Assembly: GCF_947495205.1 (NCBI RefSeq)
Contig: NZ_CANLXV010000004.1
Span: 186,001-250,000 of the forward strand
Length of the DNA stretch: 64,000 nucleotides
Source of the DNA: an uncultured Polaribacter sp.
GTDB taxonomy: Bacteria > Bacteroidota > Bacteroidia > Flavobacteriales > Flavobacteriaceae
Reading direction: 5' to 3'
Every line of letters starts with the position of its first letter. The stretch's first letter is position 1. The notes beneath the pieces are model-generated. The model was not told where the DNA came from, ran no database searches, and saw only the letters and a program-made list of their open reading frames with translations. A program made the position numbers and the translations under genes. Shown here piece after piece: positions 9,181-44,634 of the stretch.

Positions 9181-10196
9181 TAATTTTTCAATTCTTTTAA
9201 TAAAATTTCGTGCATTTGATTGGTATAATTTAAATGTGTAACAATTCTTATTTTACCTTCTCCCATAGGTGTTAATAAAATGTTTTTTTCTTTCATTTTA
9301 TTGATAAAATTATCTGCACCAATTTTTTCATTCACATAAAAAATAAGAATATTGGTTTCTACAGGTTCTATTTTAGTAATGTAACTGCAAGTTTCTAAAA
9401 CCGTGGCAATTTCCTTGGCTTTTCTATGATCTTCTGCCAAACGTTCTATATTATTTTCTAGTGCGTAAATACCAGCGGCAGCTAAAAAACCAACTTGTCT
9501 CATGCCACCACCTAATAATTTACGCAATCGCAATGCTTTTACAATGTTTGCTTTAGAACCTAATAATAATGAACCAATAGGTGCGCCTAAACCTTTAGAC
9601 AGGCAAATCGAAATCGTATCAAAAAGTTGCCCATACTGTTTGGGGTTTTCCTTTTTAGCCACCAAAGCATTAAATAAACGTGCACCATCTAAATGATAAA
9701 CTAAATTATTTTTTTGTGCTACTTTCTGTATTTTTTCCAATTCAGAAAAATCCCAACATGCGCCACCTCCTTTATTCGTGGTATTTTCTACACAAATTAA
9801 CTTTGTAAATGGCAAGTATATTTGTGGTTTTACTGCTGCAAACTCCTCAATTTGACTTGCAGTAAACATACCTCTTTCTCCGTCTATTAATTTACAAGTA
9901 ACTCCAGAATTAAAGGCAACTCCACCACTTTCGTAATTATAAATATGTGCATATTTATCTGCAATTACCAAATCTCCTGGTTGTGTATGTAATTTTATAG
10001 CAGTTTGATTTGCCATTGTGCCCGATGGAAAAAAAAGTGCAGCTTCCATACCAAACATTTTTGCTGCTTTTTCTTGAAGTTGGTTTACAGTTGGGTCCAT
10101 TTGAAAAACATCATCGCCCACTTTTGCTTGCATCATAGCATCTAACATGCCTTTTGTAGGTTTGGTTACTGTATCTGAAATTAGGTCTATGGTCAT
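9171..10196 (-). CDS. ltaE: Low-specificity L-threonine aldolase
   Basis: A PLP enzyme of fold type I that splits L-threonine/allo-threonine to glycine and acetaldehyde. The N-terminal [11 protein letters not shown], the [10 protein letters not shown] stretch (aspartate and arginine of the PLP pocket) and [16 protein letters not shown] (Schiff-base lysine) all fit. The length of 341 aa is normal. It is convergent with, and overlaps by 10 bp, the outer-membrane protein gene. It has no co-directional neighbour within 100 bp, so it is probably transcribed alone. Confidence 0.9.
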
Positions 10197-10329: not shown

Positions 10330-12789
10330 ATGAATATTTTAAAATTTGTATTGCTTATTTTTTTTGTGACTATTTCTTTTATTTCAAATGCACAAACTAA
10401 TATTTACCACAGTCCTGTTGAAGTATTAGAAAAATATAGTTTAAAAAATTATTCAGAAAAAGTTTACGTTCATTCTGATAAAACGATCTACAACAATGAA
10501 GATGACATTTGGTTTACTTTATATTTAATTAATGGAGTTACACACAAAAAATCTAATAAAAGTATGTTAGCATATGTTGAATTGCTAAACGAAAAAAATG
10601 ACATTATAAACCAAAAAAAGCTATTCATAAATAATTTAAGTACCGCTGGAAATTTTACATTATCTAAAAGTATAAAACCTGGTAACTATAAAATAAGAGC
10701 CTATACTAACCACATGAAAAATCAGAGCAGTTCTTATTTCTTTGAAAAAAAAATAACAATTTGGTCTTACAACAATGAAATTATAAATAACCAAGTTAAA
10801 GAAGTTAGCACAACGATTGCTAATAAAGAAACAGCAAGTAAACCAGATTTACATTTTTATCCACAAGGTGGCTATTTAGTAAATAGTTTAATGAATAAGG
10901 TGGTTATTAAACTGAAGAACAAAATTTACGATACTTTGCAGGTTAAGGGGAATATAGTTGACCAAAATAACGAAATAATAACTAGTTTTACTTCTACCAA
11001 ATTTGGATTAGGCGAATTTTCTATAATTCCTAAAAAAGGAAAAAAATACTTTGCAATACTAACACATAACAATAATGATTTTAAATATAAACTGCCTGCA
11101 GCTTTAAATAAAGGCTTTGTTTTGAATGTTGTAAACTCAGATAAAAAAATATACATCTCTCTAAATACAAATTCTAAAAATGGCTTATTAGGGAGTTCTC
11201 TTTTAATTCATAAAAGAGGAAAATTAATGTATAACCAAAAAATTAAAGAAGTTGTTCATAAAAAAACACTACAAATCCCAGTAAATCAACTTAACAATGG
11301 CATTATTCACATTACACTATTTAACAGCGACTTACACCCTGTTTGTGAACGTTTAGTGTTTGTTTATAAAGAAGATAATACTCCTAAAATATCTATTGAA
11401 AAAGAAAAAGAATATTATGGAATTAGAAAAAAAGTAAATTTAAAAATAAATGTAAAGAACAATCAAGACATTGTAATACCAAGTAAACTTTCTTTGTCTG
11501 TTAAAGATATAAATACTTTACCTAAAGAAAAGTTTGCTGAAAATATAAAAAGTTGGTTGCTGTTAAATTCTGATTTAAGAGGCAAAATTAAAAATCCTTC
11601 TTATTTTTTTAATAATAAAGAAAAAAGAAAAAGCAAGTATCTGTTAGACTTAATTATGCTTACAAACGGTTGGAGAAAATTTACATGGCAAGAGGTTTTA
11701 GCAAATAAATTAAACAACTTACAACACAAACCCGAAAAAGGTTTTATGCTTCAAGGAACTGTAAATTCAATAAGATCTTCTAAAAATTCATTACCAAAAT
11801 ACACAAGACTAACCTTCCCAGCAGGAGGTTTGTTTAAACAAGAACCCATAACAAAAACAGATAGTATTGGTAATTATTCTTACGGTCCTTTTGTTTTTTT
11901 TGATAGTATTCCTGTAATTGTAGAAGCTAGGCTTAATAACTTTAAATCTAAAAGAAAAGAAGATAAAAAAGTAATTATTACACCTAAACTAGGAAAAAAA
12001 GAATCGAAAATTATTTCTAAAAAAAACACTAAAGATAATATACAATCCAAAATTCTTGTAAAACCTTACACAGAACAACAAAAAAAATTACAAAAACTTA
12101 AAAATAAATTTACACAAACTGAAAATGTACTAAACGAAGTGGTTGTAAAAGCTAAATTAAAAAAAGAAGAGGATGAAAGAAATAGAGAAATGAATAAAAG
12201 AACCTCTTATGGAAATGCTTTTAATAGAACCGACTTAAATGAAATTGGTAAGTCTTTTGGAGACATTTTTAATTTATTAGCTACAATTGGTGGCTTAACA
12301 ATTAATGGTGATCAAGTAAGGGTAAACAGACAAAGAGATGCAGAACCTTTAATTTTATACAACGAACTTCCTATTGAAGCTATTGAATTGAGTGGCATAC
12401 CAGCTAATGAAGTTTCTTTTGTAGATGTTTTGGTTGGCCCTGAAATTGCTATTTTTAGTAGTAGTGTTCCTGTAATTTCTATATACTCTAAAAGTAGTTC
12501 TGGCAGATTTATAGAGAGAGAACCAGGAATTACAAATTACAAAGCAGCTGGTTTTTATACTGCTAAAGAATTTTATGCACCAGACCATATTAATGGCATA
12601 GAAGAACAAACAAAACCAGATGTGAGAACAACGCTACATTGGGCACCTAATATTATTGTAATGAAAGATAAACCTGTGGAGATTTCTTTTTTTACTTCTG
12701 ATATTAAAAGTGAATACATTATAGAAATTGAAGGAATTTCTGTAACAGGCAAACCAATTTATAAAACCTCTAAATTTTTTGTTGAATAA
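10330..12789 (+). CDS. Exported MG2/TonB-plug-like surface protein (paralogue of the gene at 57941)
   Basis: 819 aa with a signal peptide (cleavage near ISNAQ). The N-terminal part (about residues 20-130, KVYVHSDKTIYNNEDDIWF) resembles the macroglobulin MG2 domain, a beta-sandwich found in large surface proteins. A region near residues 650-730 (LNEVVVKAK, then a GGLTINGDQVRVN-like stretch) looks like a TonB-receptor plug, but no beta-barrel follows. The C-terminus carries DVRTTLHWAP. The same architecture recurs at 57941. The function is unknown; an outer-membrane or surface location is likely. It stands alone, with a long upstream gap and a convergent neighbour. Confidence 0.65.
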   Translation: MNILKFVLLIFFVTISFISNAQTNIYHSPVEVLEKYSLKNYSEKVYVHSDKTIYNNEDDIWFTLYLINGVTHKKSNKSMLAYVELLNEKNDIINQKKLFINNLSTAGNFTLSKSIKPGNYKIRAYTNHMKNQSSSYFFEKKITIWSYNNEIINNQVKEVSTTIANKETASKPDLHFYPQGGYLVNSLMNKVVIKLKNKIYDTLQVKGNIVDQNNEIITSFTSTKFGLGEFSIIPKKGKKYFAILTHNNNDFKYKLPAALNKGFVLNVVNSDKKIYISLNTNSKNGLLGSSLLIHKRGKLMYNQKIKEVVHKKTLQIPVNQLNNGIIHITLFNSDLHPVCERLVFVYKEDNTPKISIEKEKEYYGIRKKVNLKINVKNNQDIVIPSKLSLSVKDINTLPKEKFAENIKSWLLLNSDLRGKIKNPSYFFNNKEKRKSKYLLDLIMLTNGWRKFTWQEVLANKLNNLQHKPEKGFMLQGTVNSIRSSKNSLPKYTRLTFPAGGLFKQEPITKTDSIGNYSYGPFVFFDSIPVIVEARLNNFKSKRKEDKKVIITPKLGKKESKIISKKNTKDNIQSKILVKPYTEQQKKLQKLKNKFTQTENVLNEVVVKAKLKKEEDERNREMNKRTSYGNAFNRTDLNEIGKSFGDIFNLLATIGGLTINGDQVRVNRQRDAEPLILYNELPIEAIELSGIPANEVSFVDVLVGPEIAIFSSSVPVISIYSKSSSGRFIEREPGITNYKAAGFYTAKEFYAPDHINGIEEQTKPDVRTTLHWAPNIIVMKDKPVEISFFTSDIKSEYIIEIEGISVTGKPIYKTSKFFVE

Positions 12790-19464: not shown

Positions 19465-19566
19465 TATTTTTTGGGCGTTTTAACGGGCTTTACGTTGCAA
19501 TCTTTTGCTCATACTTCACAAAAGGATTTCCACTGCAATCCCTAACGCACTTACTCAACCGCACAA

Positions 19567-34194: not shown

Positions 34195-34644
34195 TTATTT
34201 GATATCCTCTAACTTTCTTATTCTAGATAAATCTGTTGCAATTTTGTTTTTTTGCTGGGTTAAAAGAGTTGCCGTTGTTTTTGGTAAAGTACTTTCCGTT
34301 AAAACTTCATTATAATCTTCTATTGAGGTTTTTTCTCCCCTAATTGCTTCTTGCAGCATAGCCTCTTCATTATCAGAAGAAAAAAGTGCTTTTACATCCA
34401 TCCAATTTCTATGTGCATTGGCTAATAAACTTCCTTCTTCTGTTGCAGCTGCATTAAAAAGATTTAATTCTTTCTTTAGTTCTTTACTAAACTGCTCTCT
34501 TTCTTGTGCTCTTTCTTTAAAATATGCTTTTAAAGGCAAACTCTCTGTATGTTCCGCTGCTTTATTAAAGCCTTTTTCTGCATCATAAGTTCTTGTTAAT
34601 AAGTTATTTAATTTACTTTCTATTGCTATTGGAAAATTTTGCAT
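34195..34644 (-). CDS. PA2169-family four-helix-bundle protein (DUF2383)
   Basis: 149 aa, ferritin-like four-helix bundle: LNNLLTRTYDAEKGFNKAAEH, YFKERAQEREQF and LQEAIRGEKTSIEDYNEVL. PA2169-type proteins are stress or stationary-phase associated in other bacteria; the exact role is unknown. It is the most downstream gene of the minus-strand stress island. The upstream 137 bp contain at best a degenerate form of the island's direct-repeat promoter, so I do not count it in that regulon. Confidence 0.8.
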   Translation of the reverse strand: MQNFPIAIESKLNNLLTRTYDAEKGFNKAAEHTESLPLKAYFKERAQEREQFSKELKKELNLFNAAATEEGSLLANAHRNWMDVKALFSSDNEEAMLQEAIRGEKTSIEDYNEVLTESTLPKTTATLLTQQKNKIATDLSRIRKLEDIK

Positions 34645-34781: not shown

Positions 34782-35252
34782 CTATTTCTCTAAAGGCAAG
34801 AACACATCTTCTACAGTAATCGTTAAATTATCTGTATTTTCTGTATCAAATTCATACGTTCCTTCATTGGTAATTAGCTTTGTTTCATCAGAACTTGTTA
34901 CAATAGACGCTCCATTTGAATTCAGTTTATAGTTCATTTTTTTGTTAAAATCTTTTAGAAAAGACATGTTTAATTCTTTATCGTAAATTTTATCGTTATT
35001 TGTATCCATTAAAATTACTTTCGCTACAGTAACAGGAGATTCTATAATGGTTTGATTTAATTTAAATCGATCTTTTTTGTTAAGAATAATTGGTTGCGTT
35101 TCTGTAACAATTGTTTTTACCTTCATAACCTCACCATCTGGCTTCATGTAGGTTTCATAAGAAATTGTTTCTTTAATATTTTTTAAGCTTTGGGCATTTA
35201 AAGAAAATGTTGTTGCGAATACAAATACTGTTATTTTAAATAAATTTTTCAT
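34782..35252 (-). CDS. Exported hypothetical protein of the stress island
   Basis: 156 aa with a signal peptide (cleavage near LNAQS). The rest is soluble and beta-rich, with no family I recognise. It sits behind two tandem copies of the island's direct-repeat promoter (35314-35377 and 35413-35476), which suggests strong, co-ordinated expression with the potassium channel, MscS and Dps genes. A periplasmic or outer-membrane-associated stress role is an inference from this context. Confidence 0.65.
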   Translation of the reverse strand: MKNLFKITVFVFATTFSLNAQSLKNIKETISYETYMKPDGEVMKVKTIVTETQPIILNKKDRFKLNQTIIESPVTVAKVILMDTNNDKIYDKELNMSFLKDFNKKMNYKLNSNGASIVTSSDETKLITNEGTYEFDTENTDNLTITVEDVFLPLEK

Positions 35253-35313: not shown

Positions 35314-35377
35314 CAAAGGTCTTAATTATTGCTAGGTTATACGTTATACAATTTTTAGAGAATCTTATATAATTTAA
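35314..35377 (-). promoter_or_regulatory. Direct-repeat promoter Pa (exported protein)
   Basis: In minus orientation: TTAAATTATATAA (35377-35365), 8 bp, AAAAATTGTATAA (35356-35344), 22 bp, GACCTTTG (35321-35314). The repeats start 21 bp apart. The -7-like box keeps CTTTG, but its first two bases deviate from TA. The gene's ATG is 61 bp downstream. Confidence 0.65.
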
Positions 35378-35412
35378 AAAGCAAGTTTTAATGCAACCCT
35401 TTACAAACACTA

Positions 35413-35476
35413 CAAATTTAAGCAGGTAACTTATATATTCTATTACAGAATTTTTATTGAATTTTATATAATTTAA
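35413..35476 (-). promoter_or_regulatory. Direct-repeat promoter Pb (upstream copy)
   Basis: TTAAATTATATAA (35476-35464), 8 bp, AAAAATTCTGTAA (35455-35443), 22 bp, TAAATTTG (35420-35413): a full match to the -7 consensus. Transcription from here would run through Pa into the exported-protein gene. Confidence 0.7.
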
Positions 35477-35495
35477 AAGGCCACTAAAATTATTG

Positions 35496-35532
35496 AAAAA
35501 AAAAAAAAAATGGCAACTATAACGTTGCCATT
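35496..35532 (-). terminator. trkH terminator
   Basis: Stem TGGCAAC / GTTGCCA (35511-35530), followed on the minus strand by an unbroken run of more than ten Ts, 70 bp after the trkH stop. Confidence 0.85.
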
Positions 35533-35607
35533 TGTATACATATTTTATGTATTAAAAATATTGTTTTAACCATTATTTTCAATGGTAAATAAAATCGAAG
35601 TATTTTT

Positions 35608-36960
35608 TTAGACTGCCAAATCATCTTCTATAAGAATTGCCTTATCATCTAATTTTCTTGCTAAAAGTGCAAAACCAAACGTTAAAACCCCAACACGACC
35701 AATGAACATTAAAATAATAATTAAAAATTTACCCACATTGCTTAAATCTCCAGTAATACCTCTACTTAAACCCACTGTTCCTAAAGAAGAGGCAACTTCA
35801 AAAAGAATATCTTCATAACTTGCGTTTTCACTATAAGTCATTAAAAAACTAAATAAAAAAATGAGAACTGTGTATAAAATAAAGGTAGAAGTGGCAACAT
35901 AAAGTCTTTCAAAAGGAATTTTTCTATTTAAAAACGTTATTTTCTTTTGTCCTAAAACCCTACTCTTTAAAACTGAAATCATAGCGGTTAATGTAGTTAT
36001 TTTCATTCCACCTGCTGTACCAGATGGAGAAGCACCAACGTACATTAAAAAAATAACTAATAACATTGTTGGTAAAGATAAGTTACTTGTTGCTATTGTG
36101 TTAAAACCAACAGTTGTCATAGCAGACATGGTTTGAAAAAATGATTTCATTAAAACATTTTGACCAGTTTCATTTACTAAAGGTTCTGTAAAATATGTTA
36201 CAGCAGTACCCAAAGTAAGTAACACAATAAAACCGTAAATAACAATTTTTGATGTGAAAGATAACTTGTTAGATTTTCTAGAAATACGATACCACAAATC
36301 TGTAATTACTATAAAACCTAAAGAACCTGCAATGGCTAAAACAGCTATAATTGTATTTATAAAAGTATGATCTTGAAAGTTTTCGAAACTATTGTTAAGT
36401 AAACCAAAACCTGCTGTACAAAAAGCAGATACACTATGAAAAACACTATACCACAATGCTTCTAGTGTTTGCATACCCGTGTCTTTAAAGGCTATGTAAA
36501 AACAAATTGCGCCTAAAGTTTCCATAACAATGGTAAATAATATTACACTTTTTAAAAAATCGTTTATTTTGATGGTTTTTGGCATTGTAAATTCTGCCCC
36601 AATAATTTTTTTATGCCAATGTGTAATTTTTTTTGTTGTAAATAACAAAAAATATGTGGTTAGCGTCATATAACCAATTCCTCCTATTTGAAATAAAAGC
36701 ATCACAATAAACTGCCCAAAAAAGGTATAAGAATCTATAATACTAATGGTAACTAAACCCGTTGTAGAAATTGCCGATGTAGAAATAAAAAGATTATCTA
36801 TAAATGATATTTCTACTTTATGAAATATTGGAAGTGATAATAATAAAAAACCTATTATCGTATAAAGAAAAAAGCCCCAAACTAAATTCATTTGTGGAGA
36901 TTTACTTAACTGAAATTTTTTATACCAAATTAAAAATCTATGAATGCTATTGTTTTTCAT
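35608..36960 (-). CDS. trkH: TrkH/KtrB-type potassium uptake channel subunit
   Basis: 450 aa polytopic inner-membrane protein with the four pore-loop repeats of the SKT superfamily: TSAISTTGLVT, SAFCTAGFGL, SAMTTVGFNT and ASSLGTVGLSRG. It imports K+ together with a cytoplasmic TrkA/KtrA NAD-binding subunit, which is not encoded in this window. Potassium uptake is the first response to osmotic upshock. The gene has its own direct-repeat promoter (Pc), shared in design with the MscS/Dps operon, so it is likely part of one osmotic/envelope stress regulon. Confidence 0.9.
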   Translation of the reverse strand: MKNNSIHRFLIWYKKFQLSKSPQMNLVWGFFLYTIIGFLLLSLPIFHKVEISFIDNLFISTSAISTTGLVTISIIDSYTFFGQFIVMLLFQIGGIGYMTLTTYFLLFTTKKITHWHKKIIGAEFTMPKTIKINDFLKSVILFTIVMETLGAICFYIAFKDTGMQTLEALWYSVFHSVSAFCTAGFGLLNNSFENFQDHTFINTIIAVLAIAGSLGFIVITDLWYRISRKSNKLSFTSKIVIYGFIVLLTLGTAVTYFTEPLVNETGQNVLMKSFFQTMSAMTTVGFNTIATSNLSLPTMLLVIFLMYVGASPSGTAGGMKITTLTAMISVLKSRVLGQKKITFLNRKIPFERLYVATSTFILYTVLIFLFSFLMTYSENASYEDILFEVASSLGTVGLSRGITGDLSNVGKFLIIILMFIGRVGVLTFGFALLARKLDDKAILIEDDLAV

Positions 36961-37001
36961 TAGTTTGAGTTTCTATATAGTGATTAACTTATTTTACACA
37001 A

Positions 37002-37065
37002 CAAAATTAGAATAGTACACTTCATTTTAAATTACATAATTTTTAAAAAAGCTTACAAAATTTTA
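37002..37065 (-). promoter_or_regulatory. Direct-repeat promoter Pc (trkH)
   Basis: TAAAATTTTGTAA (37065-37053), 8 bp, AAAAATTATGTAA (37044-37032), 22 bp, TAATTTTG (37009-37002). The -7 box fits the consensus, and the trkH ATG is 41 bp downstream. No -33 TTTG is present, which suggests that an activator is needed. Confidence 0.75.
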
Positions 37066-37095
37066 ATTATTACATTAGTTACAATTGTTTTTAAG

Positions 37096-37124
37096 TAAAA
37101 AAACCTCAATATAAATTAAGGTTT
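37096..37124 (-). terminator. Terminator of the dps operon
   Basis: In minus orientation a 10-bp stem, AAACCTTAAT / ATTGAGGTTT (one wobble), loop TTAT, then a T-run, downstream of dps. Confidence 0.7.
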
Positions 37125-37176
37125 GTTTGTATAATTTAATTCTGATATATTATTGTATACTACTTACAATGAGGTT

Positions 37177-37683
37177 TTATTGAATTGGCATTTCACTTAA
37201 CATTAATTCTTCATCTGTGTTATGACTCCATGCATTTAACATCCAACTTTCTTTTTCTAATTCGTTTATAAAGCTTCCCATCATATCCATAGTACCTTCA
37301 TCTTCAATTTTACTTGCCGCTTGCATAACATTACCCATTTGACTTAAAATTTGTTTATGATTTTCTAATATTGAGGTAATCATTTTAGCATCATCCAAAG
37401 AAATTTCTTCTTCTTTAATATTACTAATTTCTAAATATTGGCTTGCCTTACTAATTGGGTGATATTTTAATGTTAAAATACGTTCTGCAACATCATCTAT
37501 TTTTGTGCGCGCATCATTGTATAAGTTTTCAAACTTTTGGTGCAATTCAAAGAAATTTTTTCCTAGAATATTCCAATGAAAAGTTCTTAAGTTTTGATAA
37601 TATAAGTGATAATCTGCTAATAATATGTTTAACTGATTTACTACTGGTTTTACTTTATTTTGATCTATATTTAAATAATTCAT
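37177..37683 (-). CDS. dps: Dps family ferritin-like DNA-protection protein
   Basis: 168 aa. The ferroxidase-site residues typical of Dps are visible in LRTFHWNILGKNFFELHQKFENLYNDARTKIDDVAERI (His, Asp, Glu). Dps dodecamers bind DNA and oxidise and store iron, protecting against peroxide and starvation. It is the last gene of the operon lipoprotein-lmo0937-YtxH-holin-like-hypothetical-mscS-dps, starting 17 bp after mscS. Confidence 0.92.
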   Translation of the reverse strand: MNYLNIDQNKVKPVVNQLNILLADYHLYYQNLRTFHWNILGKNFFELHQKFENLYNDARTKIDDVAERILTLKYHPISKASQYLEISNIKEEEISLDDAKMITSILENHKQILSQMGNVMQAASKIEDEGTMDMMGSFINELEKESWMLNAWSHNTDEELMLSEMPIQ

Positions 37684-37700
37684 TTTTTTAATTTTTAAGG

Positions 37701-38600
37701 TTATACTTCTTGTTGTTGTGGAAAATATTTATCCAACTGATTCCCAAAATCTAAGGTTCTAATTGGAAAAGGAATTCCAATTCCTTCTTTATCATATGCT
37801 TTTTTGATAAGCATAATTGCTTCACTTTTTGCTTTAGCAACTTCTAAGGCAGATGAGGAGTTAATCCAAAAACGGATTTCATAAGTTATGGCACTATTAC
37901 CAAAACCTCTGTATAAAAACAATACATCTTCTGGTGTTTCTGGAACATCAAAATTATCTATAATAATTTGTGTAGTTAATTCTTTTACTTTTTCTAAATT
38001 AGAACCATATGCTACGCCATTTTCTAAAATTACTCTTGATTTTTCTGTTGCAGAAAAGTTTTTAATAGGGTTTTCAATTACCAATTTATTTGGTATATAC
38101 ACTAAGTTATTATCTTTTTGCCTTAATGTTAGCGCTCTAAAATCTACATCTACAATTGCACCTTCATATCCATTGGTTTTAATCCAATCGCCATTTTTTA
38201 CATTTTTAATGTAAGAAAGAACAACCCCAGAAAAAGTATTTGTTAATGCCCCTTGTAGTGCCAAACCAACTGCTAAACCTGCAACACCAGCACCTGCTAA
38301 AATTGTTTTTAAGGTTTTGTCTAAATCTAAAATTCCTAAAATTAAAAACAAACCTATAGCAACAATTACCATTGCAATTGCTCTTCCTAGCACCCTTCTC
38401 ATAGAAATTTGTATGCTAGTTTTTCTAAGTAATTTTTGCAATAATTTGCTAAAATATTTAGCAATTAATAGCGTAAATAAAAATACAACAATAGCTATTA
38501 TTATGTTGGGTATGTTAAGTATAAAAGTATCTAGCCAAGTATTTAACTTTACATACATTTCTTGAAAAGCTTCATTAAAATCTGCTGTATTAATTGTCAT
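37701..38600 (-). CDS. mscS: Small-conductance mechanosensitive channel (MscS family)
   Basis: 299 aa. Three membrane helices, with the pore-lining helix AGAGVAGLAVGLALQGALTNTFSGVVL (Gly/Ala packing pattern), followed by the beta domain (NGDWIKTNGYEGAIVDVDFRALTLR, YIPNKLVIENPIKNFSA). It opens under membrane tension after osmotic downshock. It lies 12 bp after a hypothetical gene and 17 bp before dps in the stress operon. Confidence 0.93.
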   Translation of the reverse strand: MTINTADFNEAFQEMYVKLNTWLDTFILNIPNIIIAIVVFLFTLLIAKYFSKLLQKLLRKTSIQISMRRVLGRAIAMVIVAIGLFLILGILDLDKTLKTILAGAGVAGLAVGLALQGALTNTFSGVVLSYIKNVKNGDWIKTNGYEGAIVDVDFRALTLRQKDNNLVYIPNKLVIENPIKNFSATEKSRVILENGVAYGSNLEKVKELTTQIIIDNFDVPETPEDVLFLYRGFGNSAITYEIRFWINSSSALEVAKAKSEAIMLIKKAYDKEGIGIPFPIRTLDFGNQLDKYFPQQQEV

Positions 38601-38612
38601 ATTTAAATTTAT

Positions 38613-38933
38613 CTATTTTTTTGGGGTTACTATTTTTTTTGTGAAATATTGGGTTAAGACTCCTAAAACTAAATTTAATAACGTGTTAGATTTACTTAAT
38701 TTAAGTTTTTTAAGTAATACACCAGATAATACAGTAAGTATTGGTTTGGTATAATCTAATTCTTTAAAAAGATTTTGAATAGTTGAAGAAACTATGTTAG
38801 AAAAACTAAAATCTGTTACCGTATTTTGGTAATCAACTATTACATCTTCTGCTAAATACCGTTGCTTATTTTTTAAGATATAAATCTGTTGATGTAGTTC
38901 TTCTTTTGTTGTTGGCTTAGTGTTCATTTTCAT
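38613..38933 (-). CDS. Hypothetical protein of the stress operon
   Basis: 106 aa. A charged helical N-terminus (KEELHQQIYILKNKQRYLAEDVI) is followed by one or two weakly hydrophobic stretches and a basic tail (TKKIVTPKK). I recognise no family. It overlaps the end of the holin-like gene by 17 bp, indicating tight coupling. Partnership with that membrane protein is possible but unproven. Confidence 0.6.
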   Translation of the reverse strand: MKMNTKPTTKEELHQQIYILKNKQRYLAEDVIVDYQNTVTDFSFSNIVSSTIQNLFKELDYTKPILTVLSGVLLKKLKLSKSNTLLNLVLGVLTQYFTKKIVTPKK

Positions 38934-39303
38934 TAAATTTGTTGTTTACAATAATTTCTCGTTCTCTATTTAATTCTGTAATTATTAAATTACTTATTAG
39001 CGTAACGATTAATTTTTTTCTAAATAGATAAAATAAAATCCCAAATAATAAATACATACCAGCAACTACAATAAACCCTAATGCATATGAACCAAATTTA
39101 TTGGCAAAATAAAAGCCAAACCCTAGATTAAGAAAAAGCAAAAACATAGAAAAAATAAGTATTAAAACAGTTTTACTAATAACATTAGAAATAATATCTG
39201 CCGTAAAATCTATAGCTTGTAGTTTATATAATTCTAAACTAGTTTCTACATAATTTTTTGTTTTAGAAAATAAATTTTCTAATTTTTCTCCTACGTTTTG
39301 CAT
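38917..39303 (-). CDS. Phage holin-like / YqjE-type membrane protein
   Basis: 128 aa with two membrane helices (about residues 45-70 and 78-97) between amphipathic ends. The pattern matches the putative Actinobacterial Holin-X/YqjE proteins, which sit beside YqjD/ElaB- and YtxH-type proteins in stress operons. There is no phage context here, so a lytic holin role is unlikely. It starts 10 bp after the YtxH gene. Confidence 0.7.
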   Translation of the reverse strand: MQNVGEKLENLFSKTKNYVETSLELYKLQAIDFTADIISNVISKTVLILIFSMFLLFLNLGFGFYFANKFGSYALGFIVVAGMYLLFGILFYLFRKKLIVTLISNLIITELNREREIIVNNKFNENEH

Positions 39304-39313
39304 CTTATTCTTT

Positions 39314-39580
39314 TTAGGCTATTTCTTTTTTTACTTTAGAAAGCTCTTTTTTACTTTTATCTATAATTTCTGAACTTGCCTTTTTAACAACATCATATTT
39401 TTTAGATAAGTTTTCTAAAACAGCTTCTACATTTTCAACTACATCTTCTTTAGTTTCCTTTGCTTTTCCTGCAATTTTTTCTCTTGTTTTTTCTCCTTTA
39501 TCTGGTGCCAATAAAATTCCTGCTATTCCTCCTACTATTGCTCCTCCTAAAATTCCTAAAATTGTGTTTTGTTTACTCAT
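39314..39580 (-). CDS. YtxH domain protein
   Basis: 88 aa. A glycine-rich membrane segment (LGILGGAIVGGIAGILLAPDKGEKTREKI) is followed by a charged coiled-coil-like helix. This is the YtxH/gas-vesicle-protein-like family, general-stress-induced in Bacillus. It sits 36 bp downstream of the lmo0937-like gene in the same operon. Confidence 0.82.
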   Translation of the reverse strand: MSKQNTILGILGGAIVGGIAGILLAPDKGEKTREKIAGKAKETKEDVVENVEAVLENLSKKYDVVKKASSEIIDKSKKELSKVKKEIA

Positions 39581-39616
39581 AATTTGTTTTTATTATTAAT
39601 TATTATTTAATTTTTA

Positions 39617-39763
39617 CTATTTACCTCTTATTAATCTAAGCAAAATTGCAATTGCTGCGAATACTAATAATACATGCACAATACCTTTTGTGTTGTATAC
39701 AAAAAAGCCAAATGCCCAACCTATTACTAATATTACAGCTACTAAGTATAAAATATTTTTCAT
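39617..39763 (-). CDS. Lmo0937-family small membrane protein (48 aa), not in the ORF track
   Basis: ATG 39763 to TAG 39617-39619 encodes MKNILYLVAVILVIGWAFGF... with two membrane segments and the family ending IAILLRLIRGK. Lmo0937/DUF5670 proteins are very short two-helix membrane proteins that are often stress-linked. The gene lies between the lipoprotein (22 bp upstream) and the YtxH gene. The plus-strand 65-aa ORF in the track over this region is a shadow. Confidence 0.85.
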   Translation of the reverse strand: MKNILYLVAVILVIGWAFGFFVYNTKGIVHVLLVFAAIAILLRLIRGK

Positions 39764-39785
39764 GTTTCTTATCTTTTAATTTGAC

Positions 39786-40310
39786 TTACTTTAGTAGCTT
39801 TAAAGTGTTAAACGTTGTATCTATATTCCCTTTTAATTTTTGAATACTTTCTTCTGCTACTAACGTAATGTCTTTATTATCCGACTTTTCTAAAAGAGAA
39901 TCTAAAACTTCTTTTTGTATGTCTAAATTTTCTTTAATTTGATGAATTAAGATTTTTCTGACATTTTCCTCTCTAGAAAGATCATTCTTTAAGGGCTTTA
40001 TTTTTGTTGAATTGGCAACTAGTATCATATTTTCTTTTGCTATATTCTGCAAGTTCTCTAAAATTTCTAGCTGCTCTTTTTTAATTTTTTTTGCTACTGT
40101 TATAATTTCTGAATTCAAGTTGGTATCTTCTACCTGATTGCATAATTCTATAATATTTAAATTTTTTTGAGTTGCTTTAGATAATAAAGATGCTTCTATT
40201 TTATCGTTGATAATGCTTTCTCTCAAAACATCTTTTTCTTCTTTTTTTACGATAATTAAATCACAAGAAACAAATAGCATTGCCGCAATTAGAATGTATA
40301 TATTTTTCAA
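39786..40310 (-). CDS. Lipoprotein with DUF4142-like helical bundle
   Basis: About 174 aa. I choose the TTG at 40310, which gives a proper lipoprotein signal (MKNIYILIAAMLFVSCD). The track's TTG at 40349 lies inside the -7 box of promoter Pd and would be untranscribed. The mature part is almost all helical (repeated KK.Q.EI.ENLQNIA and KENLDIQKEVLDSLLE), similar to DUF4142 proteins of Bacteroidota. It is the first gene of the stress operon ending in dps, with two tandem promoters upstream. The function is unknown. Confidence 0.65.
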   Translation of the reverse strand: MKNIYILIAAMLFVSCDLIIVKKEEKDVLRESIINDKIEASLLSKATQKNLNIIELCNQVEDTNLNSEIITVAKKIKKEQLEILENLQNIAKENMILVANSTKIKPLKNDLSREENVRKILIHQIKENLDIQKEVLDSLLEKSDNKDITLVAEESIQKLKGNIDTTFNTLKLLK

Positions 40311-40338
40311 AATTTTAATTATTTTTTGTTTTGTTTTA

Positions 40339-40402
40339 CAAAGTTGCAAAGAATTACATGCATTTGTCTTACATCATTTTTACAAATAATTACACAATTT
40401 TA
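40339..40402 (-). promoter_or_regulatory. Direct-repeat promoter Pd (lipoprotein-...-dps operon, proximal)
   Basis: TAAAATTGTGTAA (40402-40390), 8 bp, AAAAATGATGTAA (40381-40369), 22 bp, CAACTTTG (40346-40339). The chosen TTG start is 28 bp downstream. Confidence 0.7.
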
Positions 40403-40446
40403 AGTTGATTTTTTTTTTACTTAAATAGGTTTTTGTAATTACACTT

Positions 40447-40510
40447 CAAAGATGCAACAGGATTGCATTATTTGTGTTACAACATTTTTATATATTGTTA
40501 CATAATTTTA
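40447..40510 (-). promoter_or_regulatory. Direct-repeat promoter Pe (lipoprotein-...-dps operon, distal)
   Basis: TAAAATTATGTAA (40510-40498), 8 bp, AAAAATGTTGTAA (40489-40477), 22 bp, CATCTTTG (40454-40447). It is a second complete copy 108 bp upstream of Pd in the same direction. Confidence 0.68.
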
Positions 40511-40536
40511 ATATTTAAAAATTTTGGATATAAAAA

Positions 40537-40566
40537 AAACGCTATTAACTAAGTTAATAACGCTTT
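40537..40566 (-). terminator. Terminator after the CHASE3 histidine kinase
   Basis: An imperfect hairpin around AACGCTATTAAC / GTTAATAACGCTT (7-bp perfect core, mismatches outside), followed on the minus strand by a T-run. It insulates the promoters Pe/Pd from the kinase operon. Confidence 0.55.
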
Positions 40567-40588
40567 TTAATAAATGCGATTTAAGAAA

Positions 40589-42367
40589 TTATGCTGGTAA
40601 AAACACAGTAAAATTAGCGCCTTGGTTTGGCGTTCCATTTGCGAAAATAAAACCACTATGATTGTCTGTTATTTTTTTACAAATAGACAAACCTATTCCT
40701 GTTCCAGAATATTCGTTTTTATTATGTAATCTGCTAAATAATTCAAATATTTTTTCGGTGTACTGTGCATCAAAACCAATACCATTATCTTTGAAAACAA
40801 AACAATGGTATTTTTTATGTGTTCCATTTTTTAGTCTAAAATCATTATTTTTAGCTACTAGTTCGTAAGATATCTTTATTTGCGGACGCTTATCTATTGC
40901 CTTATATTTTAAGGAATTACTTAGTAAATTTGTAAACAATTGCTCAATTTGAAATGGAATTACTTTTACTTTAGGTAAAATATCTGCTGTAATTATTGCA
41001 TTTTCTTTGGTTATAATTTCAGACAGCTCTTGTTTTGCGTCTTCTAACAACTCATTTAAATCTTTAACAACAAGAATTTCGTCAGATTTATTTGTTCTAG
41101 AAAACTGCAATAAATCATCAATTAAATTACGCATTCTTTTTGCAGAAAAATTTATACGTTCCATGTATTTTTTTCCAGATTCAGAAAAATTATCTGATTC
41201 TTTATCTTCTAATCGAGATAAAAACGTTTGTATTTTTCTTAAAGGTTCTTGCAAATCATGACTGGCAACATAATTAAAGGCTTGTAATTCTTTATTGTTT
41301 AATTCCAGCTCTTTATTTCTTGTTTCTAAAGTGTTCGCATAATCAATTTCATCTGTAATATCTGTAGTAGTGCCAATTAATTGTTCTTTACCTTCTAAAT
41401 TACTAATACTTTTTCCGTAAGCTTTTAAATATTTAATGTTACCATTTTTATGCACTACTCTGTAATTTATAAAAGGTAAATCTTTTTCAATTTTCATTTG
41501 AGCAACTTGCTCTTCTAACTTTTTACGATCTTCTGGATGTACATAGCTATTAAAGTTAGCTATTGTAGCTTTAAAAGCATTTGGTTTTTCTCCTAATAAT
41601 CTGTACAAATTATCTGAAAAATAAAATTTATCATCTTCAACATTCCACCTCCAACTACCATGTTTATTTATAATTTCTGCTTGATTTGTAGCTTCTTTAA
41701 AGGTTTCTAATTGTTGATTTGTTTTGCGCAGTTTGTCTAAATCTGAACTTATTTTTGCATAAGCTATGTATAACAATACTAAAGTTAATATGATTAAACC
41801 ATATAAAAATATTGGTGTAAATTTTATAGTGTTTTCATAACTTTCTTTACGTTCTGCCAAAAGATTATTTTCTAAAGCTAACATGCCATTTAGTTTCTTT
41901 CGAATTGCATCCATATATGCTTTACCTTCAAAAAAAACTTGTTTAAACTTTTCTACATCTGTTTGATCTCTTAACGCCATTTTACTGGCTACTTCAAAAT
42001 TATGCAAGCGTGCTTCAATTAAACCATTTAAATCTTTTAAACTTTGTTGATGTTTGGAATTCTTTTTTGTTAATGCTTTTAATTCTGCAAAAGTGTTATT
42101 AATTTTACTTCTACTTTTAAAAAAAGGCTCTAAATACAAAGAATCTTGCGTAATTATAAAGCCTCTCTGCCCAGTTTCTGCATCTTTTAAATAAGATAAA
42201 ATTTGCTCTAACTCTACATTTAATTTATACGTTTGTATAACTTCTTGTTGTGTTTTAGATAACTCAGATATATGCTTGTAAGTTACCCCAGTAATAAACA
42301 AGATTACAAAAAGACTTACCACAAATATAATTTTTACAAACCAAGATTTTTTGTAATTCTGTTTCAT
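40589..42367 (-). CDS. CHASE3-PAS sensor histidine kinase
   Basis: 592 aa. Two membrane helices (about 10-30 and 185-205) flank a CHASE3 extracytoplasmic sensor (LKDAETGQRGFIITQ). Next come a PAS domain (about 230-345), a HisKA domain with the phospho-His in VASHDLQEPLRKI, and HATPase_c (DNGIGFDAQ, GTGIGLSICKKI). It resembles phytochrome-type kinases in its catalytic part. It lies 2 bp after a single-domain response regulator, its probable partner, and in one operon with an AraC-type regulator and the AI-2E permease. The signal is unknown. Confidence 0.9.
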   Translation of the reverse strand: MKQNYKKSWFVKIIFVVSLFVILFITGVTYKHISELSKTQQEVIQTYKLNVELEQILSYLKDAETGQRGFIITQDSLYLEPFFKSRSKINNTFAELKALTKKNSKHQQSLKDLNGLIEARLHNFEVASKMALRDQTDVEKFKQVFFEGKAYMDAIRKKLNGMLALENNLLAERKESYENTIKFTPIFLYGLIILTLVLLYIAYAKISSDLDKLRKTNQQLETFKEATNQAEIINKHGSWRWNVEDDKFYFSDNLYRLLGEKPNAFKATIANFNSYVHPEDRKKLEEQVAQMKIEKDLPFINYRVVHKNGNIKYLKAYGKSISNLEGKEQLIGTTTDITDEIDYANTLETRNKELELNNKELQAFNYVASHDLQEPLRKIQTFLSRLEDKESDNFSESGKKYMERINFSAKRMRNLIDDLLQFSRTNKSDEILVVKDLNELLEDAKQELSEIITKENAIITADILPKVKVIPFQIEQLFTNLLSNSLKYKAIDKRPQIKISYELVAKNNDFRLKNGTHKKYHCFVFKDNGIGFDAQYTEKIFELFSRLHNKNEYSGTGIGLSICKKITDNHSGFIFANGTPNQGANFTVFLPA

Positions 42368-42369
42368 AC

Positions 42370-42816
42370 TTAAAGTCTTAAAAGAAAGTTGTTTTTGTTA
42401 AGACCATTGGCTTGGTATTGCCAATTTGTAGTTACTACATTGTTTAATATTTTTTTTAGTTTTTTAAAACTATCTGGTTTTTTTATATAAATATTTGCTC
42501 CTTTTACAAAAGTATCTTCTATATCTTCTTCAGAGGCAGATGTAGAATAAATAGCAATAACCATATTTTTAAAGCGAGAATTTGCTTTTATTTCATGCAA
42601 ACACTCTTTACCAGATTTCCTTGGCATATTTAAATCTAAAAAAAGAATTTCTGGAATAACAGCATCTTCACTTAACAAATATTCCATTAAATAAGCACCA
42701 TCATTATAAGTACTAACCTTAGTTGTAATTTTTAACTCATCAAAAGCATCTGTAAAAAAAAGTCTATCATCCTCATCATCATCTGCCAAAATAATATGTG
42801 TGTAATCTTTTGCCAT
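42370..42816 (-). CDS. Single-domain response regulator (Rcp1-like)
   Basis: 148 aa, receiver domain only. It has the acidic cluster ILADDDEDDR, phospho-acceptor in ILFLDLNMPRKSG, S/T in YSTSAS and lysine in IKKPD. There is no DNA-binding output, so it must act through another protein, either by phosphotransfer or by binding, possibly the AraC-type protein 5 bp upstream or the kinase 2 bp downstream (inference). Confidence 0.9.
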   Translation of the reverse strand: MAKDYTHIILADDDEDDRLFFTDAFDELKITTKVSTYNDGAYLMEYLLSEDAVIPEILFLDLNMPRKSGKECLHEIKANSRFKNMVIAIYSTSASEEDIEDTFVKGANIYIKKPDSFKKLKKILNNVVTTNWQYQANGLNKNNFLLRL

Positions 42817-42821
42817 AAGTA

Positions 42822-43376
42822 TTAATTATTTAGTAATTTTCTTTTTGCTATAATTCTTTGAAAGGCAGATGGTGTAATGCCTGTTGTATTTTTAAATTGA
42901 GTGCTTAAGTGTGCTACACTAGAATAATTTAATTTAAACGCAATTTCTGTTAAGCTTAAATTTTCATTTAAAATTAAATGTTTGGTATATTCTATTTTTT
43001 GCAAAATGATAAAATTTTCTATGGAAGTGTAGGTAACTTCAGAAAATAAGCTTGCCAAATAATGATAACTGTGTTCTAATTTTTCGGATAAATAAACGGA
43101 ACTTTTAGTTTGAATTTCTGTATCTAAATTATAAATCATATCTATAATTGTATCTTTAATTTTTTGAACTAAAATGGTTTTTTGATCCTCTACAATTTCT
43201 ATATCATAAGCATCTAAAGCTTCACTAAACATTTTTTTTTGTTCTGATGATAAGGGCTCTAAAAAATCTACTTCACCAAAATTAGCGATATTGTATTTAA
43301 GACCTAATTTATTTAATTGTTCTGTTAAAACAGCGGAACAAACCTTATTAAAATTAAATTTTACAAAAATTTTCAT
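42822..43376 (-). CDS. AraC-family transcriptional regulator with small alpha/beta N-terminal domain
   Basis: 184 aa. The C-terminal AraC helix-turn-helix pair (about 95-182: LILNENLSLTEIAFKLNYSSVAHLSTQFKNTTGITPSAFQ) is intact. The N-terminal 75 residues (MKIFVKFNFNKVCSAVLTEQLNKLG...) look like a ferredoxin-like beta-alpha-beta module without a CxxC metal motif; I cannot name its ligand. The gene is 56 bp downstream of the AI-2E permease and 5 bp upstream of the response regulator, so it is probably transcribed from promoter Pf. It is the best in-cluster candidate to bind the 21-bp-spaced direct repeats, because AraC-type activators bind such tandem sites next to the core promoter. Confidence 0.85.
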   Translation of the reverse strand: MKIFVKFNFNKVCSAVLTEQLNKLGLKYNIANFGEVDFLEPLSSEQKKMFSEALDAYDIEIVEDQKTILVQKIKDTIIDMIYNLDTEIQTKSSVYLSEKLEHSYHYLASLFSEVTYTSIENFIILQKIEYTKHLILNENLSLTEIAFKLNYSSVAHLSTQFKNTTGITPSAFQRIIAKRKLLNN

Positions 43377-43432
43377 TACTACATATTTTCAGTAAATTTA
43401 ATTTTAATCTTCTTAAGAAGGTAATTTTATCT

Positions 43433-44545
43433 CTATTTATTTTTGCTTCTAATCAGTTTCCATTTTTTTAATCTCGCTCTAGCTGTACTTTTTAAAAACT
43501 TATCTTCTGGTTCACCTATTAAAAAACCTAATGCCTTATGATCTTTAGAATTATCAAACAAAACTTTTAAAGTTGCTGTTATTGGCAAAGCTACAACCAT
43601 ACCAGAAACGCCCCAAAGCATTGCAAAAACAATAAGACTTACTATAGCAATAAATGCATTAACACTAACTCCAGCGCCTATTACTTTGGGCGTAATAAAA
43701 TACCCTTCTATAAACTGAATGGCTGCAAACATTGAGATAACACCAACAGCATACCAATAAGAATCTTTAGTTGCCAAAGCTACAACTGCTGGTAAAATAG
43801 AGCCAATAAAAACACCAACATAGGGTATAATAATTAAAAACGCACCAAAAAAACCGAAGAAAATAGCATTATTAATTCCTAAAATTAACAAACCAATACT
43901 ATTAAGTGTACCTACAATTAAAATTACCTTTATTAATCCTAAAAGATAATTTCTTTGCACATTGTAAATCTTACTTATTATTGAGTTTAAGAAACTTTTG
44001 GTTTCATTTTTAAATAGTTTGTAACTAAAATTCCTAAAAAATCTTCTGTAATATAAAAAGAAAAACATGTAAATAGGTATTAAAACTAAATCGGTCATTA
44101 AAGTTCCCCAACCCGCTATAAAAGAAGACAATTTATCAAAATTACCTTTTATTAATGCGCCAAAATTTATTTCATCATTTAATAAAGATGCATTTCTTTT
44201 TACACCCATTATATCCTCAAAAAAAAGAATTGTTCTTGTATATAAATCATCTAATTTAGAAATGTAAACTTCACTATTATCAACAAAAAAATACAATTGC
44301 GTACCAATAACAAAAAGTAAAATGGTAGTAATTACAAAAATTATAATTATAGAAATAATGGTTGCTAAAAGTCTGTTGCATTTCATTTTCTTTTCTAATT
44401 TTTTCTGTATTGGAAAAATCATTATTGCAAAAATAATAGCTAAAACCAGTGGCACTATTAAAGATTTTAAGATAAATAAAATAAAAACAGTTGCTATTAA
44501 TGTTATTAGAGAAGATAATTTGTTTGATTTCAAGTGTGTATTCAT
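43433..44545 (-). CDS. AI-2E family transporter (PerM/TqsA-like permease)
   Basis: 370 aa, about eight membrane helices. The family core IIIPYVGVFIGSILPAVVALA and VIGAGVSVNAFIAIVSLIVFAMLWGVSGMVVALPI is clear. Members export autoinducer-2 or act as Na+/H+ antiporters, so the substrate is open. It is the first gene behind promoter Pf and probably the head of the operon permease-araC-response regulator-kinase. The sodium antiport function known for some members would suit an osmotic-stress island. Confidence 0.87.
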   Translation of the reverse strand: MNTHLKSNKLSSLITLIATVFILFILKSLIVPLVLAIIFAIMIFPIQKKLEKKMKCNRLLATIISIIIIFVITTILLFVIGTQLYFFVDNSEVYISKLDDLYTRTILFFEDIMGVKRNASLLNDEINFGALIKGNFDKLSSFIAGWGTLMTDLVLIPIYMFFFLYYRRFFRNFSYKLFKNETKSFLNSIISKIYNVQRNYLLGLIKVILIVGTLNSIGLLILGINNAIFFGFFGAFLIIIPYVGVFIGSILPAVVALATKDSYWYAVGVISMFAAIQFIEGYFITPKVIGAGVSVNAFIAIVSLIVFAMLWGVSGMVVALPITATLKVLFDNSKDHKALGFLIGEPEDKFLKSTARARLKKWKLIRSKNK

Positions 44546-44570
44546 TTGTTTTATTGGCAGATTAGTGCAA

Positions 44571-44634
44571 CAAAGTTAACTGCAACAACAATATTTTTTG
44601 TTACATAATTTTCTTAATTATTTATACAATTTTT
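44571..44634 (-). promoter_or_regulatory. Direct-repeat promoter Pf (AI-2E permease-AraC-RR-HK operon)
   Basis: AAAAATTGTATAA (44634-44622), 8 bp, GAAAATTATGTAA (44613-44601), 22 bp, TAACTTTG (44578-44571). The -7 box is a full consensus match, and the permease ATG is 25 bp downstream. If the AraC-type protein binds here, the operon is self-regulated. Confidence 0.75.

Follow-up and report, generated by a model that had tools for sequence, protein, structure and literature searches.

In a 64,000-nt stretch from an uncultured Polaribacter sp. (Flavobacteriaceae; assembly GCF_947495205.1, contig NZ_CANLXV010000004.1, positions 186,001 to 250,000; hereafter the window), six minus-strand sites of 64 bp share one direct-repeat arrangement beside a promoter-like box, raising the question of which protein reads them and to what end. 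The sites were described in a first-pass annotation made from the sequence, and all six were found where it had placed them. We propose, with a probability of about 0.82, that they are the operators of one regulon controlled by a 184-amino-acid (aa) AraC-type protein encoded among them, with input from a neighboring sensor kinase and receiver. Coordinates below are window positions, and all window features named lie on the minus strand.

Architecture and rarity of the six sites

The pattern AAATNNTRTAA-N10-AAATNNTRTAA-N26-TTTG matches all six sites with 0 mismatches. The fixed intervals that had been claimed are borne out in each of them, the repeats starting 21 bp apart and the second repeat lying 22 bp from an 8-bp box, and this spacing is constant while the spacer letters vary between sites. 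Two details required correction: the seventh base of the 13-mer put forward as the repeat unit varies, and of the -7-like box TAnnTTTG, which is the consensus -7 box of Bacteroidota sigma-A promoters (PMC9723704), the TTTG and the A are present in 6/6 sites and the first T in only 3/6. When the sites were read directly, the usual -33 TTTG proved to be missing from all six, as first described; the second half-site occupies its place.

Operator 1 (44571-44632; half-sites 44622-44632 and 44601-44611; TTTG 44571-44574) is the promoter of the operon that contains the AraC-type gene, 25 nt 5' of the ATG of its first gene. Operators 2 (40447-40508; half-sites 40498-40508 and 40477-40487; TTTG 40447-40450) and 3 (40339-40400; half-sites 40390-40400 and 40369-40379; TTTG 40339-40342) are the upstream and downstream partners of a tandem pair, the latter preceding a lipoprotein gene. 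Operator 4 (37002-37063; half-sites 37053-37063 and 37032-37042; TTTG 37002-37005) lies 41 nt from the ATG of trkH. In the second tandem pair, operator 5 (35413-35474; half-sites 35464-35474 and 35443-35453; TTTG 35413-35416) is upstream of operator 6 (35314-35375; half-sites 35365-35375 and 35344-35354; TTTG 35314-35317), which lies 61 nt from the ATG of a secreted-protein gene.

A window of only 28.6% G+C lends some substance to the view that the sites reflect chance, AT-rich composition or a mobile repeat element. Allowing up to three mismatches, AAATTRTRTAA-N10-AAATTRTRTAA matches the window at the six sites only, confirming a count that had been made by eye, and dinucleotide shuffles average 0.60 such matches and never reach six. 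With TTTG at +26 included, the window gives 6 matches at 0, 1, 2 and 3 mismatches alike, compared with 0, 0, 0.05 and 0.27, respectively, in third-order Markov sequences. A consensus-free test of four host intergenic regions ranked 21 bp first (5 windows) and 36 bp second (4). Chance AT-richness is therefore insufficient, as had been argued, with shuffles, Markov sequences and reversed-pattern controls all near zero; because the spacing also holds while spacers differ and promoters of different genera retain the pattern, we consider this explanation almost negligible.

The 3.14-Mb genome was scanned by pattern search with the reversed pattern as control. The island sites are the six best in the genome; as dual repeats, five have 0-1 mismatches and one has 2, and the 15 further matches equal the 15 for the control. 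When TTTG is added to the pattern, all six match without mismatch and only two other matches are found, each with 2. Extra weak operators elsewhere in this genome were considered and rejected, their number being at control level.

Conservation and promoter position

With the island AraC-type protein (42822-43376) as bait, 80 loci of up to 20 kb each were collected from other species of Flavobacteriaceae and Weeksellaceae. These contain 108 dual repeats (at most two mismatches), nearly all on the regulator's strand, versus 0 of the reversed pattern, which answers the call of the first-pass annotation for a check of conservation between species. A scan of gaps from 0 to 30 placed 108 pairs at a gap of 10, corresponding to the 21-bp period, and 0-3 at each other gap; the half-site of the relatives reads AAATTnTRTAAC. 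The claim of invariant spacing thus stands for the 21-bp period and needs relaxing for the distance to the promoter, TTTG following the second repeat by 26 bp in 86 operators and by 25 bp in 12, about one in ten. Relatives, too, have tandem pairs, 88-121 bp apart. The arrangement extends to more distant regulators of the subfamily, near which 21-bp repeats occur together with TTTG at 26 (19 matches vs 2 for the control), and among subfamily members in 20 further genomes of the class AATTnTRTAAC with at most three mismatches occurs 18 times at 21 bp and 0-3 times at other spacings.

The first-pass annotation had named random placement inside genes as the outcome that would speak against its claim. 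Only 4 of 153 distinct operators lie inside open reading frames (ORFs), as against 83% of random positions, and the next ORF starts a median of 90 nt away from TTTG. That the operator is real and conserved is, in our judgment, nearly certain. The single architecture, its conservation and promoter position, and its linkage and co-occurrence with the 184-aa regulator described below are all observations at the level of sequence.

Relatives' operators show a purine peak 5 nt 3' of TTTG, and transcription probably starts at this distance from the box, which is compatible with the start placement that the first-pass annotation had predicted. Counted from such a start, the two repeats would have their centers at about -40 and -60, and the midpoint between them would fall near -50. 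For comparison, the AraC half-sites of PBAD center on -52.5 and overlap the -35 element (PMC7408454); the resemblance of the present placement to araI1/I2 at PBAD suggests that a degenerate sigma-A promoter is activated in the class II manner. Each half-site would be occupied by one regulator monomer, both monomers lying on one side of the helix, and the bound regulator would replace the missing -33 element and bring RNA polymerase to a weak -7 promoter in much the way that AraC operates at PBAD. AraC-family proteins are capable of both activation and repression (PMC7408454), so that the regulator might instead shut off constitutive promoters until a signal relieves the block. We rate this distinctly unlikely and activation the more likely mode: a missing -33 element together with a degenerate -7 box is what one would expect of activator-dependent promoters, and the constant distance of 25-26 bp to TTTG points to a contact with RNA polymerase for which simple repression would have no need.

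The proposed AraC-type regulator and its putative receiver partner

The proposed regulator (42822-43376) carries a C-terminal HTH_18 domain (Pfam, 2.3e-14; HTH_AraC, 8e-11), and an AraC-type DNA-binding domain was matched in 32/32 aligned members. This agrees with the AraC/XylS family, whose defining C-terminal domain spans about 100 aa and has a pair of helix-turn-helix motifs. Its predicted model resembles the GadX, MarA and AraC domains, and the DNA-binding part is nearest, by sequence and by fold, to YesN-type REC-AraC regulators and GadX. The N-terminal alpha/beta domain has no Pfam match among the 32 members, and fold comparison gave only a weak match to the CopA metal-binding domain 3fry (E=1.3); a heavy-metal-associated (HMA) domain was suspected and dropped on these two grounds.

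We surveyed 201 genomes of the family, defining orthologues by at least 63% identity and non-carriers by the lack of any match better than 1e-30. All 13 genomes with an orthologue have at least two operators (mean 5.7 vs 0.38 for the control), and the 134 genomes without a close homologue average 0.41 vs 0.29. A second survey covered the 118 genomes of the one GTDB genus to which the window belongs, which takes in Polaribacter strains and Tenacibaculum adriaticum, with orthologues defined by at least 48% identity. Operators occur in 18/18 orthologue genomes vs 5/100 others (p=4e-17, a value that overstates the number of independent events as the genomes are kin). The 184-aa protein is very probably the operator binder, as judged from these sequence associations.

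The main competing account holds that another DNA-binding protein, a LytTR response regulator or a 338-aa AraC protein, binds the sites and that the 184-aa gene is merely a target. LytTR operators are also direct repeats, with about 12 bp between them and just upstream of -35 (PMC6193735), and the genome encodes 15 LytTR domains, none of which is in the island; LytTR was rejected as the binder for want of a linked gene. A gene for an AraC-family protein of 338-354 aa stands behind an operator in many relatives (L055, L057, L067-L070, L085, L090, L093 and L172), where its product is possibly a second-tier regulator. The 338-aa protein was likewise rejected as the binder here, being absent from the Polaribacter genome (best match 25% identity over half its length), which nevertheless holds six perfect operators. 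Since operators also follow the 184-aa orthologue within the genus, we regard a different binder as unlikely. Of the two binder types first offered, AraC-like or LytTR-like, only the former is upheld, by linkage, co-occurrence in the genus, conserved spacing and PBAD-like placement.

Several points weigh against the proposal. Two of the 84 genus genomes without any homologue still have an operator match. The regulator is linked to the sites, and part of the co-occurrence could reflect co-inheritance of the island and not binding; this is less likely because unlinked operators (20/44) exist in other family genomes, although their weight is limited by being found only in genomes that carry the orthologue. 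The -40/-60 placement depends on the inferred start, and the contact between receiver and regulator discussed below is deduced from gene order.

The operon consists of genes for an AI-2E family transporter (43433-44545), the AraC-type regulator, a stand-alone receiver (42370-42816; REC only, phospho-acceptor Asp61), the proposed partner of the regulator, and a CHASE3-PAS-HisKA-HATPase sensor kinase (40589-42367), in that order. The receiver gene lies directly 3' of the regulator gene in 80/80 loci, and the kinase gene is present in 61/80. Receiver and AraC-type DNA-binding domain are separate, adjacent genes in the window and in all 80 loci, never fused. Asp61 is kept in 61/61 kinase-bearing loci; 18 of the 19 kinase-less loci have Asn, Lys, Arg or Glu in its place, the exception being a 4.3-kb contig (L059) that ends too early to include a kinase gene. 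All 18 are from Chryseobacterium and represent one lineage, not 18 events; this lineage retains regulator, receiver and operators without the kinase and the phospho-Asp. From this pattern we infer that kinase and receiver form a phosphorelay and that the receiver is also bonded to the regulator independently of phosphorylation. In the proposed pathway, the CHASE3-PAS kinase would sense stress and phosphorylate the receiver, which would control the AraC-type protein by contact, and the output would be the regulator's own operon, giving positive feedback, together with osmotic, DNA-protection and envelope genes. Because its DNA-binding part is nearest to YesN-type REC-AraC regulators and GadX, the system looks like a response regulator divided between two chains.

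Compared with known systems, the arrangement is of an already known kind, being AraC-type and class II-like. It shares with AraC/XylS class II activators, such as Escherichia coli AraC at araBAD I1/I2, a C-terminal AraC-type DNA-binding domain, putative autoregulation, and two direct-repeat half-sites about two helical turns apart, by or over the -35/-33 element; unlike E. coli AraC, the regulator lacks a sugar-binding domain and would act at a Bacteroidota sigma-A promoter (-7 TTTG box) with a separate receiver as its partner. YesMN-type two-component systems (YesN, AraT), whose DNA-binding domains are the nearest solved ones, likewise combine a membrane kinase, a receiver domain and an AraC-type domain in one operon, whereas here receiver and DNA-binding domain are separate proteins, and the Chryseobacterium lineage kept this pair after losing the kinase and phospho-Asp. 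LytTR systems have positive autoregulation and operators made of direct repeats, about 21 bp apart, that immediately precede the core promoter (PMC6193735), but the island encodes no LytTR protein. The novelty appears to lie in a regulator partnered with a receiver, in the Bacteroidota setting of the promoters and in the regulon.

The regulator is patchily distributed in the genus (18/118 genomes at the 48% threshold), and the nearest relative identified (78%) comes from a Dokdonia bin; both would be in keeping with the island having been transferred horizontally or lost repeatedly. Paralogous regulators (L182-L200, e.g. L198, L199 and L200) adjoin a variant operator with AAATTnTACAA half-sites, whose 21-bp period and spacing to TTTG are unchanged. 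Most members of one paralogue group have SSVAYLS in place of SSVAHLS in the second recognition helix, and their half-sites tend toward TACAA; with few cases in the sample and one regulator that does not conform, Tyr-for-His is only suggestive of a possible specificity switch. Another family genome (G183, homologue at C6:34257) has seven operator-like sites, with half-sites of the form GAATnATGTAA, spread over about 25 kb (C6:44040-67071) near a 47%-identity regulator, a putative dense regulon.

Predicted target genes and the proposed regulon

Tandem operators 2 and 3 head a run of genes for the lipoprotein (39786-40310; start codon uncertain; distantly DUF4142-like via a Kordia relative), an lmo0937 family membrane protein of 48 aa (39617-39763), a YtxH-like protein (39314-39580), a holin-like membrane protein (38917-39303; weak Pfam match), an MscS-type mechanosensitive channel (37701-38600) and a Dps-type ferritin-like protein (37177-37683), with a small unassigned protein at 38613-38933. 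Operator 4 precedes the gene for a TrkH-type cation transporter (35608-36960), and operators 5 and 6 precede those for the secreted protein (34782-35252) and a DUF2383 four-helix protein (34195-34644), which presumably share a transcript.

The window's target genes recur in relatives behind 206 operators (at most two mismatches). Operators distant from the regulator mostly lie 20-70 nt 5' of genes for Dps plus CsbD, for MscS, for a lipoprotein with DUF1328 behind it, for lipocalin plus an OmpA-like protein, or for beta-barrels. Operators within 10 kb of the regulator make up 36/41 in the genus vs 24/44 in other family members, so that the regulon is a mostly self-contained island in this genus and dispersed elsewhere in the family; in the genome of the window it is limited to the island, and in relatives it also includes distant genes.

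This gene content, unrelated stress-protection genes that fit the pattern of a general stress response, makes a stress role likely. The SigB, RpoS and EcfG general stress regulons of other phyla include targets of partly the same kinds (Dps, CsbD, YtxH, small membrane proteins and osmotic channels). They are run by an alternative sigma factor, in contrast to the proposed AraC-type activator acting on an ordinary sigma-A promoter, where stress induction is putative. We know of no general stress regulator comparable to these established in Bacteroidota. Tentatively, and with more doubt than confidence, a small receiver-partnered AraC-type activator of a class-wide subfamily might fill that role in Bacteroidota, with a fixed 21-bp direct-repeat operator, ordinary sigma-A-type promoters and, in some genera, a self-contained island of sensor, regulator, targets and operators. 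The present findings supply a named candidate regulator and an operator precise enough for target prediction from sequence alone, and the Chryseobacterium lineage, which lost kinase and phospho-Asp and kept regulator, receiver and operators, constitutes a natural experiment. The way in which flavobacteria turn on Dps, CsbD, mechanosensitive channels and envelope proteins can now be tested directly in culturable genera.

In line with the suggestion of an undescribed regulon, a literature search found no published description of operator or regulon and nothing on induction by several unrelated stresses, most subscription journals lying outside its coverage. A start-site study of F. psychrophilum makes no mention of AraC or direct repeats (PMC9723704).

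In Chryseobacterium indologenes (L122), two regulator-adjoining operators precede stretches without a convincing ORF (9715-9925 and 11097-11640) that end in terminator-like hairpins by computed folds, with similar cases in L106, L117 and L130. The products of these operators may be small non-coding RNAs, although the candidate transcripts match no Rfam family. In the window itself, positions 19477-19550 match the Flavo-1 RNA (RF01705, 50 bits), a widespread Flavobacteriaceae RNA of unknown function.

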